This document shows, in pieces, positions 10,826 through 20,520 of a stretch of 50,256 nucleotides of DNA. Numbering within the stretch: position 1 is the stretch's first letter; each line of letters begins with the position of its first letter. The translations under genes were made by a program, and so were the position numbers. Origin of the DNA: Mariniblastus sp. (lineage in GTDB: Bacteria > Planctomycetota > Planctomycetia > Pirellulales > Pirellulaceae); the NCBI GenBank assembly GCA_023300235.1, contig JALZWN010000063.1:1-50256 (forward strand). Direction: 5' to 3'. The notes under the pieces were generated by a model. It saw nothing but the letters and a program-made list of their open reading frames with translations, had not been told where the DNA came from and made no database searches.

Positions 10826-13800
10826 ATGGCAACCCCAGTTGAGCGACGATTAGCACCCGATCAAAAACGCACCTTTGGCAGTGGCCGCGATTATCGCACG
10901 CCACCTGATCTAACCCAGATCCAAACCAAGAGCTATTCTGCTTTTTTGCAGCTAGAGAATCCGGAAAAGCGCAAGCTTCACGGAATCGAAGGTGTACTAC
11001 AAGAGATTTTCCCGATCCAAAGCTACGACAAAAGCTTGTCGCTTAGCTATGTTCGGTATGAGCTGGGCAAGCCCCGTTACACGCCTGAAGAGTGTCGCCA
11101 ATTGCGGATGACCTACGGTCAACCGTTCCGCGTGTGGTTGCGTCTGGACAAAGAGCAAGCCATCGAAGAGGAAGTCTTCTTAGGCGACATTCCTGTCATG
11201 CTTGGCGGTGGTGAGTTTATCATCAACGGCGCCGAGCGTGTTGTCGTTAGCCAGCTGCACCGTTCGCCTGGCATCGACTTCGTGATGGACACTGACACGA
11301 CTTCGGATCGTAAGCTGGCAAGTTGCCGCGTGATTCCGGAGCGTGGTAGCTGGATCGAAATTAACGCGACCAAGAAGGACGCGTTGACTGTCCGTATCGA
11401 CCAGAGCGGCAAGTTCAGTGCGTTGACACTGCTTCGTGCGATGGATCCAAAGTACAGCGAAGATTCGGACATCTTGCGTGCGTTCTACGAGACTAAGAAA
11501 GTCAAAGTCGTCGACGGCCGTAGTGCTGCCAAGCTTGAAGGCAAGATCGCTGTTGACGATATCGTTTACCCGGCAAACAGTGATCGCGCTGGCGAGATCA
11601 TCGTTGAAGTCGGCCACAAGATCGGCAAAGACGCTTCGGAGTTGATTTGCACTTCGGGCGTAAAGACTTGTGAAATCATGATGCCGCCGAAGACATCATT
11701 GATCTTCAACTCATTGATCGAAGACAACACCTCCAGCCACGAAGAAGCGTTGCTGCGGATTTACCAGCGTTTGCGACCGGGCAACCCACCTGCTTTGGAA
11801 AAGGCACGCACGTTGTTCCGCGAAAAATTCTTTGATTCCAACCGTTATCGCTTGGGACGAGTGGGTCGGTTTCGCATCAACCGCAAGCTAGACCTGAACG
11901 TCAGCGAAAAAGAGATGACGCTGCGTCCAGAAGACATCCTGGAATCAGTTCGCTACATCCTTGAGTTATCGACTCCTGGTGGCAGCGCTCACGTCGACGA
12001 TATTGACCACTTGGGTAACCGACGCCTTCGCACGATCGACGAACTGGCTTGCGATGAACTTCGCAAAGGCTTCTTGAAGCTTCGCCGGACCGTCCAAGAG
12101 CGCATGAGCTTGCGTGACCAGGAAGACATGACACCGCGTAGCTTGGTGAATCCAAAAAGCGTTTCTGCGGCGATCGATTACTTCTTCGGTCGTGGTGAAC
12201 TTTCGCAGGTGGTTGACCAGACCAACCCACTGTCACAGTTAACTCACGAGCGTCGTCTTTCGGCACTTGGCCCTGGTGGTTTGAATCGTAAGCGTGCGGG
12301 CTTTGAAGTTCGCGACGTTCACATTTCTCACTACGGTCGTATTTGCCCGATTGAGACTCCTGAAGGTACAAACATTGGCTTGATCTCCAGCCTCGCGATT
12401 TACGCGAGCGTGGATGACTACGGTTTTTTGGTGACTCCCTACATCGTTGTCAAAGGCGGCGTGGTCACCGACGAAGTCGCTTGGCTCCGAGCCGACGAAG
12501 AAACCGAAGCCTATGTTGCACCGGCGGATACACCGATTGAAAACGGTGCGATCGTCGCCAGCAAGGCACTCGGCGGAAACGTTGTGGCTCGCTTTAAGGC
12601 TGACTTCGAATTGGCTTCGCCGGACGAGATCAAGTACATGGACATCGCGCCGGCTCAAATGGTCGGCGTATCGGCGGGTTTGATTCCGTTCCTTGAGCAC
12701 GACGATGCGAACCGTGCGTTGATGGGATCGAACATGCAGCGCCAAGCCGTTCCGCTATTGGTGGCCGAGCCGCCGATCGTTGGTACTGGTATGGAGGTTC
12801 AAGTCGCGGAAAACTCTGCGATGCTGATTCGTGCCAAACGGGCCGGCAAGGTCAAGTACGTTGATTCGACTCGCATCGAAATCGGCAACGACGTTTACGA
12901 TTTGAAAAAGTACGTCGGCCTGAACGAGCGAACCTGTCAAAACCAAAAGCCACTGATCAAGCCTGGTCAAGAGGTCAAAAAAGGCGAAGTCATCGCTGAC
13001 GGTGCTGCGACTTACAAGGGTCAACTGGCACTCGGTCGCAACGTGCTGGTCGGGTTTATGTCGTTCGACGGTTGCAACTACGAAGATGCGATCATTATTA
13101 GTGAAGAGCTTGTCCGCAACGACACGTACACCTCGATTCACATCGAAGAGTTTGACGTCGAAGTTCGCGAGACCAAGCTTGGCCGCGAAGAATTCACTCG
13201 CGACATTCCCAACGTCAGCGAAAAGGCTCTTCGGAACCTCGACGAAAACGGAATCATCCAAGTCGGTACTTACGTCCGTCCAGGTGACATTTTGGTCGGC
13301 AAGGTGTCTCCGAAATCGAAAACCGAATTGACTCCTGAAGAAAAATTGCTTCACGCGATCTTTGGTCGTGCCGGTGAAGACGTAAAGAACGATTCGTTGG
13401 AAGTGTCTTCGGGCATCGAGGGAATCGTCATCGACAGTCAGCGTTTCTCACGCCGCATGAGCCTTTCAGAAGAAGAACGAAAAGTCTTCGAAAAGGACCT
13501 CAAGGCAGCCGAAAACGACGGCAACGAGCACGTTGCTGAAGTCTTTGGCGAGATGATTGTGGCGATGGAAAAAGTCACTGGCAAAACATTGACCGACGAA
13601 GACGAAACTCCGTTGGTTCGCGATCAAGACCCAAAGTTTGTTGCTGAAAAGGCAGCTAACTTCCGTTTGAGCAGCGTTGTCGATGCGATGCGTAGCGATG
13701 ATAAGATTAAGCAAGTCACTGCGATCTTCAAAGAGCATGATCCGTTGGTCGAAAAGGCCATCGATGCTCGTGACCGCACCGTCAACAGCATGAAGCGTGG

Positions 13801-14557
13801 CGATGAACTTCGCAGCGGAGTGCTACAGATGGTCAAGGTTTATATCGCGACCAAGCGTACGATCTCCGTCGGCGACAAGATGGCCGGACGTCACGGCAAC
13901 AAGGGTGTGATTTCTAAGATCTTACCGATCGAAGACATGCCTTACCTTGAAGACGGTACACCGATTCAAATCATGTTGAATCCACTGGGTGTTCCATCGC
14001 GTATGAACGTGGGGCAGATCCTTGAGACCCACTTGGGTTGGGCCGGATCGAAGCTTGGTTTCCAAGCGATCACGCCTGTGTTCGATGGTGCGACGGAAGC
14101 TGAGATCAACGATTGTTTGGCCGAAGCTGGCTTGCCGGCTCACGGCAAGCACCGTCTGTTCGATGGCCGCACCGGTGAAGCTTGTACGCAAGAGACAACC
14201 GTCGGTTACATCTACATGTTGAAACTGCACCACTTGGTTGACGACAAAGTCCACGCTCGAAGCACTGGACCTTACTCGTTGATCACCCAGCAACCGCTCG
14301 GTGGTAAAGCTCGTTTCGGCGGTCAACGCTTCGGAGAGATGGAAGTTTGGGCTCTGGAAGCTTATGGAGCTGCTTACATCTTGCAAGAATTGCTGACGGT
14401 CAAATCGGACGATGTTGAAGGCCGTACCAAGATCTACGAATCGATGGTCAAAGGCGAAAACACGCTTGAAGCCGGCACGCCTGCCAGTTTCGACGTTTTG
14501 ACCAACGAAATCCGAGGCCTTGCCTTGAACATGCAACTGGAAAAACGACGCGGTTAA
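10826..14557 (+). CDS. rpoB: DNA-directed RNA polymerase subunit beta
   Basis: Second largest RNA polymerase subunit, 1243 residues. Family landmarks are intact: the fork-loop and rifampicin pocket [18 protein letters not shown] (starting about 453), [20 protein letters not shown], the nucleotide-contacting segment [12 protein letters not shown] and the C-terminal anchor [19 protein letters not shown]. It lacks the large lineage-specific insertions of E. coli. In the rifampicin pocket the residues equal to E. coli F514 and N518 are Val and Thr. It is preceded by a long leader and followed by rpoC after 119 bases. Confidence 0.98.
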
Positions 14558-14607: not shown

Positions 14608-14676
14608 CTGTATCGATGCCCAACGCCCCCCCACAAATCAAACATATCCACAGTTCCAATAGGACAGGTGAATTTT

Positions 14677-17600
14677 ATGGCAACTGCCGACACCACCTAC
14701 GATCGCGTCAACGATTACGCTTCGGTCAAGATTTCACTAGCTCGCCCACACGACATCCGCAGTTGGTCGATGGGCGAAGTGAAGAAGCCTGAAACGATCA
14801 ACTACCGTACGTACCGACCTGAAAAAGACGGTCTGTTCTGCGAGCGAATTTTCGGCCCTGAAAAGGACTGGGAGTGTGCTTGTGGTAAGTACCGCGGCAT
14901 GAAGTACAAAGGCATGATTTGCGATCGCTGTGGCGTTAAAGTCACTCACTCTCGCGTTCGCCGTAAACGAATGGGCCACATCGAGCTCGCCGCTCCTGTG
15001 GTTCACATTTGGTTCTTCAAAGCCATGCCTAGTCGTCTGGGTAACTTGCTGTCGATGAAGACCAGTAGCTTGGAAAAAGTAATTTACTTCCAAGACTATG
15101 TCGTCACCATTCCTGGCGATACCGATCTTGAAAAACAACAACTGTTGACCGAAGAAGAGTACCGGGCCAAAGTGGCCGAATTCGGCGCTGGTAGCTTCAC
15201 TGCCAAAATGGGTGCCGAAGCCGTACGCGATTTGCTGGGCGAACTTGACTTGGTTCACCTCTCAGAAGAACTGCGGACCGACTTGGCCGAAACAGGCTCC
15301 AAGCAAAAGCGTAAAGACCTGACCAATCGCTTGAAGATCGTTGAGGCGATCCGTGACAGTGACAACAAGCCTGAGTGGATGGTCCTTGATGTCATCCCCG
15401 TCATTCCTCCGGACCTTCGTCCGCTGGTTTTGCTTGACTCAGGTAACTTTGCTACCTCCGACTTGAACGACCTTTACCGCCGGATTATCAACCGCAACAA
15501 CCGCTTGCGTAAGTTGGTCGACTTGAACGCTCCTGAAGTCATCATCCGCAACGAAAAGCGTATGCTTCAGCAGTCGGTCGATGCGTTGTTTGATAACAAC
15601 CGCTGTAAACGTCCGGTGCTCGGCTCAAGCAACCGACCGCTGAAATCTTTGACCGACATGATCAAGGGCAAGCAGGGGCGTTTCCGTGAAAACCTACTCG
15701 GCAAGCGTGTTGACTATTCAGCTCGTTCGGTCATCGTGGTGGGTTCACGTTTGAAGCTACACCAATGTGGTTTGCCAAAGAAAATCGCGTTGGAGTTGTT
15801 CCAGCCGTTCATCATCCGCAAGCTTAAAGAACTTGGTCACGCTGACACGATCAAAAGCGCCAAGAAAATGCTCGAACGGAAGGACGAAGAGGTCTGGGAT
15901 ATCCTCGAGCAAGTCATCCGCAACCACCCGGTCATGCTCAACCGTGCTCCTACGCTTCACCGCATGGGCATCCAGGCCTTCGAGCCGACGTTGGTAGAAG
16001 GCAACGCGATTCACTTGCACCCGCTGGCGTGTAAAGGCTTCAACGCTGACTTCGACGGGGACCAGATGGCCGTCCACTTGCCGCTTTCGATTGAGGCACA
16101 AGTTGAAGCTCACACGTTGATGCTTTCGACCAACAATATTTTTGCTCCGTCCAACGGCCGTCCGATCATGAGCCCGTCTCAGGACACCGTGATGGGTTGC
16201 AACTACGTTTCGTTAGTGCTGCCGAATCAAAAAGGCGAAGGCATGATCTTCTCCTCACCGGACGAAGCGGACACAGCTTACTCGTTGGGCGTGATCAACT
16301 TGCACAGCAAGATCAAGGTCCGGATCCCAGCAGGCCGTTTCATTCGCCAGCACTCAGGCCCCGGCGAGCGTTTGCCGGCTCAGATCATCGAGACCAGCTA
16401 CGGCCGGATCATGTTCAACATGATGTTGCCTGAGGGCTTGGATTACTACAACTACCCGCTTAAGAGTAGCGATCTCGCGGTTGTGATTTCTGACTGTTAC
16501 CAAACCCTCGGTCGTCGCGAAACGATTGAGCTGTTGGATGACATGAACCAGCTTGGTTTCCGCGAGAGCACCCGCAGTGGTCTTTCGTTCGCGACCGATG
16601 ACCTGGTGACACCCGAATCCAAAGAAACTATCGTTGCGACTGCGGACAAAGAAGTTCTCAAGCTCCGCAAGCACTACGAACGCGGTATTATCACCGAGAA
16701 CGAGCGATACCAAAAAGTACTTGAAGCTTGGACACACGCTCGTGAGCAGATTACCGCTGAGATGATGGCGGCGATGGAAGTCGACTTCCGCGGTGGCGAC
16801 GGCTACGTCAACCCTGTGTTCCTAATGGCGGACTCGGGTGCTCGTGGTGGTAAAGAACAAATTCGCCAGCTCGCTGGCATGCGTGGTTTGATGGCCAAGC
16901 CGACCGGTGAGATCATCGAGACACCGATTAAGGCGAACTTTCGCGAAGGCCTGTCCGTCTTGGAATACTTCTCCTCGACTCACGGTGCTCGTAAAGGTTT
17001 GGCGGATACGGCTCTGAAAACAGCTGACTCGGGTTACCTAACTCGTAAACTGGCTGACGTTGCCCAAAACGTTGTGATCACCATGGAAGACTGCGGCACG
17101 GTTCGCGGAATCACCAAAGGTTTGGTTGCACGCGGCGAGCACATCGAAGTCTCGTTGGCCATTGCGGTTAATGGACGCGTTTCACGTCAGAACATCGTTA
17201 ACCCAGTTACCGATGAAGTGATCGTCAAAGAAAGCCAAATGATCACCCCAGAAATCGGGCGAAAGCTCGAAGGCATGGGCATCAAGAGCATTCAAGTCCG
17301 AAGCCCGATGACTTGTGAAGCACCGCTGGGTGTTTGCCGTTGTTGCTACGGAATGGACATGTCCACCGGTGACCTTGTTGAACAAGGCATGGCGGTCGGC
17401 ATCATCGCTGCTCAATCGATTGGTGAACCTGGTACTCAGTTGACCATGCGTACATTCCACATTGGTGGTGTGGCCGGTGGTGACATTGAAGAAAACGAAA
17501 AGTCTTGCACCAAGGCTGGCATCATCAAGTATGCGAAGATGAAGGCGGTAACCAACGACAAAGGTGAAACCGTTGTTCTTAATCGTAATGGTGAAATCAT

Positions 17601-19986
17601 CATCACCGACGATCGCGGTCGTGAACTTGAAAAGCACAGTGTGCCCCAAGGTTCTACGCTGGTCGTTGCTGAAGGCAAAAAAGTCAAAGCCAAAGACGTC
17701 GTCTGCCAGTGGAACCCGCACATTACTCCGGTTATCGCGGAAGTCGCTGGTAAGGTTCGCCACGAGGATATCATCGAGGGCGTGACGATGATGGCTGAAG
17801 CCGAATCAAGCGGCACAATTCGAAAAACGATCATCGACTCGAAGAAGGACATGCACCCGCAGATCATTATCGAGGACGCCGAAGGCAAACCGCTGGACGT
17901 GTACTACCTACCTGAAAAGGCCGCGATCACGATCGACGAAGGCATGATGATTTCCGCTGGTACAACCATCGCGGAAACACCTCGCCAAACTTCAGGCATC
18001 TCCGACATTACCGGTGGTCTACCTCGTGTTACCGAGATTTTTGAAGCTCGTAAGCCAAAGGATCCTGCGATTTTGGCCGAGATCGATGGTCTCATCGAGA
18101 TCATGCCAGAAAAGAAACGTGGCAAGCTTTCCATGATGGTTCGCAACGAAAGCGGCCTAGAAGTCGAACACTTGGTGCCTCCTGGCAAACCGCTTCGAGT
18201 CCGCTCGGGCGACGAAGTGGAAGCCGGCGATCAGCTGGTCGATGGTCCGCTCGTGCCACACGACATCCTGCGAGTTTCAGGTGAAGAGCTTGTTCAGAAA
18301 TACTTGTGCCACGAAGTCCAACAGGTCTATCGTAGCCAGAAGGTAGAAATCAACGACAAGCACATCGAGATCATTATTGCTCGCATGCTTCGCAAAGTAA
18401 AAATCGATTCTGCTGGCGACACTCACATGTTGCCTGGTTTGATTTGCGATCGCTTTGATTTCCAAACCGTCAACGACAGTCTCGCCGACAGCGTCAAAAT
18501 CACCGACAAAGGTGACAGCGACTTCAGCAAGAGCCAGATCGTTGCAAAGCAAGTCTTCGAAGAAACAAACGCCAAGATCGAAACCCTCGGTGGCAAACCA
18601 GCCAAGAGCACCAAGCCTCGTCAGGCCAAGTGTAGCACTCAGTTGCTGGGTATCACCAAGGCAGCCGTTCAAAGCTCAAGCTTTATCTCAGCGGCGTCGT
18701 TCCAAGAGACGACCAAAGTTCTGACCGAAGCTGCTCTGGCAGGCAAGGTCGACAACTTGGTTGGTTTGAAAGAGAACGTCATCCTTGGTCACTTGATTCC
18801 GGCTGGTACAGGCTTCCGAACCTTCCAAGAATCAGAAGTCCAATACAACTTGGAAGCCATGAGAGAAGCTGCAGCACAACCTGCTCAGACGCTCGAAGAG
18901 ACCTTCCCGTTGTTAGAGTCAGGTGCACCAGTCGGCGATGGCGGTGGAGATCAATTCACCAACGCCATGACCAACGATAACGTGACACCTATCGATGCAG
19001 GCGGAGGCGTTGATCCACTATCTGCCTTGATCGGTGGTCAAACATCAACCGAAGCCGCCACGGACGACTTGACCAAAATCGAAGGCGTCGGTCCTGCGAT
19101 TGCCAAGCACCTGAATACTGCGGGCATCAACTCGTTCTCCGATCTTGCCGGAACAAAGCCAGCTCGAATCCGCGAGATCCTTGATGAAGTCGGGGGCTTT
19201 GCGGCTCACGACCCGTCCACTTGGCCTGACCAAGCTCAATTGGCAGCCGTTGGTGCTTGGGACGAACTGAAGGAATGGCAAGACCAGCTTGATGGTGGTC
19301 GCGTGATCGGTGGAGCAGAAGCCCCCGCCGAAACCACTGCCCCTGAAGCAATCGCACCAGTCACGCCAGGCGTTGACGCTGCGGCCGGGTTTGCCGCCAG
19401 CACACCGGCGGCACCAGCGACACCTGAACCAGTTGCACCGGCAGCCGAAGCAGCAACACCTGCTCCTGCAGTCGATCCAGCCGCTGAAGATGACTTGACC
19501 AAGATCGAAGGCGTTGGACCCAAGATTGCCGAGCATCTAAAGGTGAACCACATCAAGACGTTTGCTCAACTAGCAGCGACTGATCCTAAGAAGGTCCACG
19601 AGATCCTGGTTTACGGTGGCTTTGCCGCTCACGACCCAGGTACTTGGTCCGAGCAAGCCAAACTGGCTGCCGCGGGCGAATGGGACAAATTGAACCAATG
19701 GCAAGACGAACTTGACGGCGGAAAAGAAGTCGCTGGTAGCGACGACCTGACCAAAATCGAGGGAATCGGCCCCAAGGTCGCGGAACTGCTCAACAGCAGC
19801 AGCATCACGACCTACAAGAAGCTAGCCGAAACCCAAGCGGACGCGATCAAAGAAATTTTGACCGCTGCCGGTGGAATCATGGCCAATATGAACCCGTCTA
19901 CATGGCCCGACCAAGCCCAATTGGCTGCCGCCGGCGAGTGGGACAAGCTCAAACAGTGGCAAGATGAACTTGATGGTGGTGTGTAG
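14677..19986 (+). CDS. rpoC: DNA-directed RNA polymerase subunit beta', with three C-terminal helix-hairpin-helix modules
   Basis: Largest RNA polymerase subunit, 1769 residues against about 1200-1400 in most bacteria. The ATG at 14677 follows AGGACAGGTG. The zinc-ribbon C-A-C...C-D-R-C-G, the catalytic [12 protein letters not shown], the trigger-loop region and the second zinc site ([15 protein letters not shown]) are all present, and the normal C-terminus (H-L-I-P-A-G-T-G, about 1371-1378) is complete. About 375 further residues follow: an acidic/Gly linker, then three modules of about 79 residues (from 1463, 1605 and 1689), each starting D-D-L-T-K-I-E-G-[VI]-G-P and ending W-Q-D-[QE]-L-D-G-G. 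A Pro/Ala linker separates the first two. The motif is a helix-hairpin-helix, a fold that often binds nucleic acid. Confidence 0.97.
19063..19299 (+). repeat. RpoC HhH module 1 (coding repeat)
   Basis: 79 codons starting [11 protein letters not shown] and containing [18 protein letters not shown]. First of three copies at the 3' end of rpoC; followed by a Pro/Ala-rich linker of about 63 residues. Confidence 0.93.
19489..19722 (+). repeat. RpoC HhH module 2 (coding repeat)
   Basis: 78 codons starting [11 protein letters not shown] and containing [18 protein letters not shown]. Clearly homologous to modules 1 and 3 along the whole length; only six residues separate it from module 3. Confidence 0.93.
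19741..19980 (+). repeat. RpoC HhH module 3 (coding repeat)
   Basis: 80 codons starting [11 protein letters not shown] and containing [14 protein letters not shown]. It ends two codons before the rpoC stop, so the module is the physical C-terminus of beta'. Confidence 0.93.
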
Positions 19987-20064
19987 TTCAGGCAGAGAAA
20001 GCTCAGACAAATCGTTGTTTGAGGCCCTCTAAAGCGAACTTCGATTAAAAAATACCATTTGTGG

Positions 20065-20092
20065 TTGACATTTTAGCCAAAACTACTAATTT
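20065..20092 (+). promoter_or_regulatory. Candidate promoter for rpsL-rpsG
   Basis: A perfect TTGACA at 20065-20070 is followed by the AT-rich stretch ACTAATTTTA (20085-20094), 63-90 bases before rpsL. No -10 hexamer at ideal spacing stands out, so this is a weak call. Confidence 0.35.
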
Positions 20093-20154
20093 TACGGGCT
20101 TCCCATGTCCGATTTGACAGGGAAACCACAGACCGAATCTATGCGTGAATAAGA

Positions 20155-20520
20155 ATGCCAACGATCAATCAGTTGCTGCGTAAGCGACGCAAGAAAAAAC
20201 GTAAATTCACCAAAGCTCCTGTACTCGAGCGATGCCCCCAAAAACAAGGGGTTTGCTTGCAGGTGCGTACCATGACACCGAAAAAGCCGAACTCGGCTCT
20301 TCGGAAGATTACTCGTGTTCGTTTGAGCAACGGTAAAGAAGTCACGGTATACATTCCGGGTGAAGGCCACAACCTGCAGGAGCACTCGATCGTGCTTGTC
20401 CGCGGTGGTCGCGTCCGTGACCTTCCTGGTGTTCGCTACCAGGTTGTCCGTGGCGCTCAGGATGCTTTAGGCGTCGAAGGCCGTAAGCAATCTCGCAGCC
20501 GATACGGCGCGAAGAAGTAA
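20155..20520 (+). CDS. rpsL: 30S ribosomal protein S12
   Basis: Decoding-centre protein, 121 residues. The conserved [10 protein letters not shown] loop (K43 and K44) and G-G-R-V-x-D-L-P-G-V-R-Y loop are present. In the second loop, position 88 (E. coli K87 without the initiator Met, M. tuberculosis K88) is Arg, encoded by CGT at 20416-20418; in those organisms a Lys-to-Arg change here gives streptomycin resistance. The first loop is unchanged. The N-terminus is more basic than usual (R-K-R-R-K-K-K-R-K). It starts the rpsL-rpsG-fusA part of the classical str operon, 168 bases after rpoC. Confidence 0.98.

Follow-up and report, generated by a model that had tools for sequence, protein, structure and literature searches.

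Three tandem helix-hairpin-helix modules at the C-terminus of the RNA polymerase beta' subunit of Mariniblastus sp.: a possible docking arm drawn from a mobile module family

The window, i.e. the whole stretch of 50,256 nucleotides of Mariniblastus sp. that was analysed (contig JALZWN010000063.1), carries rpoB at positions 10826-14557 upstream of rpoC, and the ORFs that start downstream of rpoC at 20155 and 20716 look by eye like those of ribosomal proteins S12 and S7. The product of 14668-19986 is RpoC, the beta' subunit of RNA polymerase, as it exceeds the cut-off of the NCBIfam family TIGR02386 (1695.2 bits against 963.5, best stretch at residues 20-1272) and carries the catalytic NADFDGD motif, in the form NADFDGDQM. 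The frame opens with a GTG, and the ATG at 14677, 9 nt 3' of AGGACAG, is by eye the likelier start, giving a product of 1769 aa. No excess of promoters or terminators is found in 18800-20200. The features are as follows.

14668-19986, + strand: rpoC, RNA polymerase beta' subunit, 1772 aa from GTG (NCBIfam TIGR02386)
14668-18879, + strand: RpoC core, residues 1-1404; the boundary was placed by us where relatives cease to align closely
18880-19062, + strand: acidic pre-module linker, residues 1405-1465, predicted disordered; its FPLL-type motif is also present in module-less relatives
19063-19299, + strand: helix-hairpin-helix (HhH) module 1, residues 1466-1544, net charge -8 (Pfam, module alignment)
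19300-19488, + strand: Pro/Ala-rich linker, residues 1545-1607, predicted disordered (pLDDT <50)
19489-19722, + strand: HhH module 2, residues 1608-1685, net charge -5 (Pfam, module alignment)
19723-19740, + strand: six-residue spacer between modules 2 and 3 (module coordinates)
19741-19980, + strand: HhH module 3, residues 1692-1771, net charge -6 (Pfam, alignment, AlphaFold pLDDT 96.4)

The tail past residue 1404 comprises 368 aa with a pI of 4.24 and a net charge of -35. As the original prediction held, it contains three homologous modules of ∼79 residues, with pairwise identities of 50/78, 48/79 and 48/78 and pairwise alignment scores of 242-269, whereas 300 shuffles of each pair never scored above 21; modules 2 and 3 lie next to each other (6 residues between them), module 1 is set apart by the Pro/Ala linker of 63 residues, and module 3 stops one residue short of the RpoC stop. 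The assignment to the HhH class is borne out at the sequence level by Pfam HHH_5, which matches the whole protein at 73.9 bits (cut-off 27) in three stretches in the tail, the tail itself scoring E 7.4e-23, and which spans approximately the first 39-45 residues of each module. The second half (TWP..QA..AA.G.W..L..WQD.LDGG) gives no Pfam match over the cut-off, WXG100 touching there at 15.3 bits against 27.3. The motifs that had been described as common to all modules are so in outline only, as WPDQAQLAA occurs unchanged in modules 1 and 3 alone (WSEQAKLAA in module 2) and WQDELDGG in modules 2 and 3 (WQDQLDGG in module 1). Similarly, the modules are indeed extra to the core, whereas the first part of the tail, also taken to be extra, is ordinary for the family, module-less relatives having 50-276 residues beyond the core motif GHLIPAGTG (63 rows). 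By a loose pattern, the FPLL-type motif follows the core in 83/83 family tails, one of the 84 rows giving no core end. Some family tails terminate in an LDxLL/F-G-like motif, found by pattern in only 42/83 tails (module-bearing rows counted too), and both FPLL and LDxLL/F-G are possible short linear motifs.

Among 28 same-genus genomes, the RpoC end is found in 26, each with modules beside it on the same contig, as judged by eye, which rules out an artefact of one contig. In the remaining two the RpoC end is not found: G544 (77% complete) has no module, and G546 (82% complete) has modules on L17 and other ORFs. A first draw of 149 family genomes gave the module in 15, always in RpoC, with the RpoC core end in 137. 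When all 241 family genomes were searched (E <=1e-8), the module was found in 37, namely in RpoC in 35 and elsewhere only in two, i.e. G546 (L17 and another ORF) and G620 (a 535-aa protein). The 35 comprise the 26 same-genus genomes and nine from five other genera (g30, g48, g50, g56 and g66), with one to four copies per RpoC, so that the conservation suggested for Pirellulaceae holds in 26/26 congeners with an RpoC end and in 35/241 family genomes. No RpoC module was found in 206/241, the RpoC end having been checked in only part of these 206. In genus g48, modules are present in 3/5 genomes, G143 being without them and G093 being truncated by a contig end. Of 296 genomes drawn across the order, five match at 1e-8, all inside the family, and a phylum-wide draw of 392 gave 12 at 1e-6 besides our own; RpoC was the host in none of the 11 of these 12 that were read, the twelfth being G468 with a 984-aa ORF, and one match is on L20 (G321).

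The original prediction had named stops or frameshifts in other isolates as evidence against it. In part they are seen, four of the 26 congeners that have an RpoC end being affected and the other 22 having no stop in the matched stretches: an in-frame TGA lies in the core end before the modules in G543, the frame is broken in the core in G539, a run of N accompanies a frame change in the tail of G535, and a TGA lies within the second module in G538. As these are draft assemblies, sequence error is possible in all four, and a frame broken in the core of rpoC, an essential gene, looks like such an error. In G134, contig C104 (L303, L071) carries a second partial RpoC end and a module fragment, either an assembly variant or a duplicate.

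That the tail reflects domain recruitment had also been proposed, and the recruitment proves far broader than was claimed. The NCBIfam models of L21, S2, NuoE and phasin include the RpoC-tail module. A scan of genome records with one peptide pattern, DLTx[IV]EG[IV]GP, from which the best 80 of 551 relatives were kept (a sample biased towards matches close to the RpoC module and conforming to one pattern), gave 62 ribosomal hosts, 9 RpoC and 9 others. In these best 80 of 551, the ribosomal hosts are S2 (46), L17 (4), L21, L27 and S16 (3 each) and L15, L19 and L20 (1 each), and the others are AMP-binding enzymes (4), NrfD (2), an FAD-binding subunit (1) and two unclassified proteins; classes were assigned via short motifs, except that the first residues, inspected by eye, gave the class of L127 (L17), L174 (S2) and some AMP-binding, NrfD and unclassified hosts, and Pfam that of L149 (L21), Pfam having been run on 20 proteins, 16 of them from the best-80 loci. 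All nine RpoC matches in the same set are from Planctomycetota (Pirellulaceae or Planctomycetaceae), one being Mariniblastus, and the ribosomal-protein hosts among the matches listed are from Bacteroidota, Pseudomonadota, Ignavibacteriota and Planctomycetota. Loci L170 and L172 encode L27 with three modules (Saprospiraceae) and L20 with two (Chitinophagales), and L132 and L142 encode 653-aa proteins with one module each, that of L132 without a Pfam match. Among viral contigs, 1/37 pattern matches encoded a relative, spanning query residues 2-40.

An alignment of 50 modules from RpoC and other hosts (A2, 80 columns) has invariant columns in each half; in the first they are partly due to the search pattern, which fixes D2, L3, T4, E7, G8, G10 and P11, whereas those of the second (P52, W55, Q58, A62, W67, L70, Q74, G79 and G80) are independent of it. 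The last module ends 1-12 residues from the C-terminus in 19 RpoC rows (one further row, cut by a contig end, being left out) and 1-10 residues from it in 71 other proteins. With both halves present and a position at the extreme C-terminus, the RpoC modules belong to the mobile C-terminal module family of L21, S2, NuoE and PhaH. In the genome studied here, L17 bears one C-terminal HhH module and is encoded downstream of rpoA (contig C97, L004 757-1755), and the L17 of G546 is fused likewise (L103 739-1752); by ORF length and Pfam, these are the only 2/27 module-bearing genomes of the genus with such a fusion. Our genome also encodes, on contig C200 (L064 1424-3745), a 774-aa ORF with two divergent modules and, by eye, a likely membrane segment. 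Further modules occur on uncharacterized proteins of G134 (L070), G065 (L068, L069), G055 (L066, two ORFs) and G620 (L306).

AlphaFold predicts one module, from 50 aligned modules, as all helical with six helices of at least four residues (mean pLDDT 96.4, pTM 0.84). For the whole tail (8 sequences), the mean pLDDT is 59.8 and the pTM 0.23, for which reason we give no placement of the modules; per ten-residue block, the modules reach about 64-89, the linkers about 25-42, and the stub of the RpoC core is poor. The tail is thus predicted to consist of folded modules arranged as beads on disordered linkers. A Foldseek search of the PDB with the module model yielded 87 matches with E up to 10, not one of them at E <=0.001; among the matches listed, all at E 0.4 or worse, RadA ranks first and NusA of Planctomyces limnophilus third (E 0.84). 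A profile search of the PDB gave clear matches only to 8yy9 (E 1.7e-8) and 9wqv (E 4.5e-6), followed by topoisomerase V at 0.00099, the weak matches being to the HhH regions of topoisomerase V, DNA polymerase beta and RadA.

Those weak matches bear on what the modules may bind. HhH hairpins classically bind phosphate backbones, and the modules might likewise hold DNA or RNA through their hairpins, the tail serving as a tether that raises polymerase processivity or retention. All 15 modules of an alignment made with no motif filter (A1) have the hairpin glycines G8 and G10, and K5 and K12 hardly vary across the 50 modules of A2, mostly pattern-collected, as such a tether would have it. Against it, all 59 RpoC modules (20 sequences) have a net charge of -4 to -10, and those of other hosts average -4.9 (n=74, one at >=0), whereas the RuvA HhH pair of our genome is at +6; moreover, NuoE, NrfD and phasin are hosts that, to our knowledge, do not handle nucleic acid. 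We dropped net acidity as an argument against DNA binding, since the alpha-CTD of the same genome is also at -4 (PolX -1 or -4; NusA HhH -16 over 61 residues), and consider the tether unlikely, although it fares best among the alternatives. Contig C99 of our genome (L279) also carries a 151-aa ORF that by eye resembles a free-standing alpha-CTD. The placement of the tether near the jaw and downstream DNA, as originally proposed, is not supported, because omega binds the C-terminal region of beta' (PMC7700224). The linkers are nevertheless long enough that they could reach elsewhere.

A second alternative starts from the range of hosts, in that the modules could bind each other or one common partner and so join module-bearing machines, e.g. 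RNA polymerase and ribosome in transcription-translation coupling. The three modules on RpoC and the one on L17 in our genome, together with the occurrence of the module elsewhere on S2, S16, L15, L17, L19, L20, L21 and L27, are in keeping with such a bridge, as are E. coli 30S-RNA polymerase complexes in which beta' cross-links near bS1, uS2, bS6 and others (PMC6566652). Yet the L17 fusion is confined to 2/27 module-bearing congeners, in one of which (G546) the RpoC end is not found. As a module-bearing RpoC usually occurs without a module-bearing L17, we regard the bridge as a weaker form of the idea of a ribosomal or ribonucleoprotein partner and as decidedly improbable.

The history of the tail was addressed with an RpoC-core tree of 84 rows and 770 columns, 20 of the rows with modules; this is a 'quick' tree with SH-aLRT support only, with long branches for G051 and G022, from which L198 (truncated by a contig end) and L228 (odd end) had been dropped beforehand. 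Module presence needs at least four changes on this tree, and well-supported branches force four. A single origin was rejected, the 20 rows as one clade giving an AU test p of 3e-114. Most simply, the modules would have been gained once in the main clade and independently in G055 (a one-contig genome, 99% complete) and in G065, and lost in G143, the gain in the main clade being tentative in view of poorly supported forks near G027 and G029. A tree of the modules themselves (80 columns, 83 rows) is poorly resolved, the RpoC modules not forming one group and the tail copies grouping partly by position and partly by genome. It hinted at a transfer of a same-genus tail to G055, which was set aside as the grouping of the three G055 modules together is not rejected (p 0.33, three divergent rows dropped).

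Selection on the tail was assessed from dN/dS, with the ratios being rough as dS is high (0.57-1.39) and the linkers have 38-44 codons. In pairs L110/L111, L110/L109 and L109/L111, drawn from three species and hence not independent, the ratio is 0.010-0.019 for the core, 0.026-0.039 for the modules, 0.051-0.074 for the pre-module linker and 0.13-0.42 for the linkers. Pair L113/L114 gives 0.015, 0.045, 0.10 and 0.37, respectively, and a fifth pair (L112/L126) is saturated outside the core, its tail being uninformative. The order core < module < linker thus holds in all four pairs. Apparent repeated gain followed by purifying selection argues for a real function of the beta' modules. That the module merely spreads as a near-neutral C-terminal fusion, tolerated because it is self-folding and sits at an exposed terminus, would suit the patchy distribution, the copy number of 1-4, the absence from G143 although three genomes of its genus bear modules, the location near the extreme C-terminus and the one genome with a stop inside module 2, but is very doubtful in view of a module dN/dS of about 0.03-0.045 against 0.13-0.42 in linkers of the same genes and of retention in 26/26 congeners with an RpoC end.

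Sequence comparison establishes that the modules are fused to RpoC, are conserved there, have been gained or lost repeatedly and recur on ribosomal proteins. From these findings we infer a docking function: the tail may be a flexible, multivalent docking arm, specific to the lineage and derived from a mobile family of C-terminal add-on modules, a reading to which we give an even chance. Retention of the modules in all congeners with an RpoC end, their low dN/dS, repeated origin, predicted fold as beads, ribosomal-protein hosts and C-terminal position all point to such an arm, whereas the lack of a Foldseek match at E <=0.001, the weak likeness to NusA, the patchy presence and the four broken frames speak against it. 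The tail would emerge from the polymerase beside omega and keep a protein or ribonucleoprotein partner nearby, several weak module sites giving avidity, in the way that alpha-CTD, likewise of the HhH type, and the HhH repeats at the C-terminus of NusA act. We think that a protein or ribonucleoprotein is a more likely partner than downstream DNA. Docking of an HhH-class domain of RNA polymerase on the ribosome has a precedent, as one alpha-CTD sits on uS9 and 16S helices 38/39 in an expressome (PMC6566652). Together with the host range, the contacts of beta' and alpha-CTD with the ribosome in the same source make a ribosomal or ribonucleoprotein partner thinkable. No single ligand is evident, however, because the hosts extend beyond gene expression to NuoE, phasin, NrfD, an AMP-binding enzyme and a CO-dehydrogenase-type flavoprotein. 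A wider form of the docking-arm reading, speculative and on the whole improbable, is that the module is a general docking 'address' moved about among the termini of ribosomal proteins, RNA polymerase and other large complexes, and here would form a multivalent arm from the polymerase to a partner in gene expression. We know of no such mode of coupling or clustering for any bacterial RNA polymerase.

Few proteins are as conserved as the subunits of RNA polymerase, and beta' has here apparently acquired up to four extra folded domains, gained repeatedly in one family and then kept under purifying selection. The same module is found on eight different ribosomal proteins among the matches listed, so a ligand identified for one host could explain many; the question raised is what is bound by a module annotated after a DNA nuclease that is yet acidic and sits on ribosomes and polymerase.

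Among the matches listed in open-access PMC literature, no paper has HhH modules on RpoC or ribosomal proteins as its subject. The module itself is known in databases, and no paper among those listed describes it on RNA polymerase beta'. Its entry is presumably COG3743. That name appears in an account of PhaC2 (PMC8686332). The tail resembles alpha-CTD in being an HhH-type domain on a flexible RNA polymerase linker, but alpha-CTD belongs to another subunit and is a single domain; the alpha chain is absent by name among the PDB matches listed (60 of 71 profile, 50 of 87 Foldseek). The C-terminal HhH repeats of NusA (1wcn, 2jzb, 4mtn) likewise place C-terminal HhH in a transcription protein and are acidic in our genome, although the match is weak in fold (1wcn, TM 0.52 by query, E 4.6; 4mtn, E 0.84) and in sequence (E 0.24, module positions 1-39 only, not reaching the second half, TWP..QA...W..L..WQD.LDGG). 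The O chain of a reaction-centre protein (8yy9) and the 41 kDa subunit of complex I (9wqv) carry the module, by sequence, near the C-terminus of other hosts. The closest counterparts are L21 (PRK12278), S2 (PRK12311), NuoE (PRK12373) and the phasin PhaH, families which we take to be alphaproteobacterial and whose C-terminal module is homologous to that of the RpoC tail. Positions 110-215 of 216 in the L21 model align with residues 164-265 of the tail (E 6.4e-27), and the tail scores below the cut-offs of all four full-length families, as expected for a shared part. The arrangement described here differs from these in its host, the beta' subunit of RNA polymerase, which carries the module in one to four copies.
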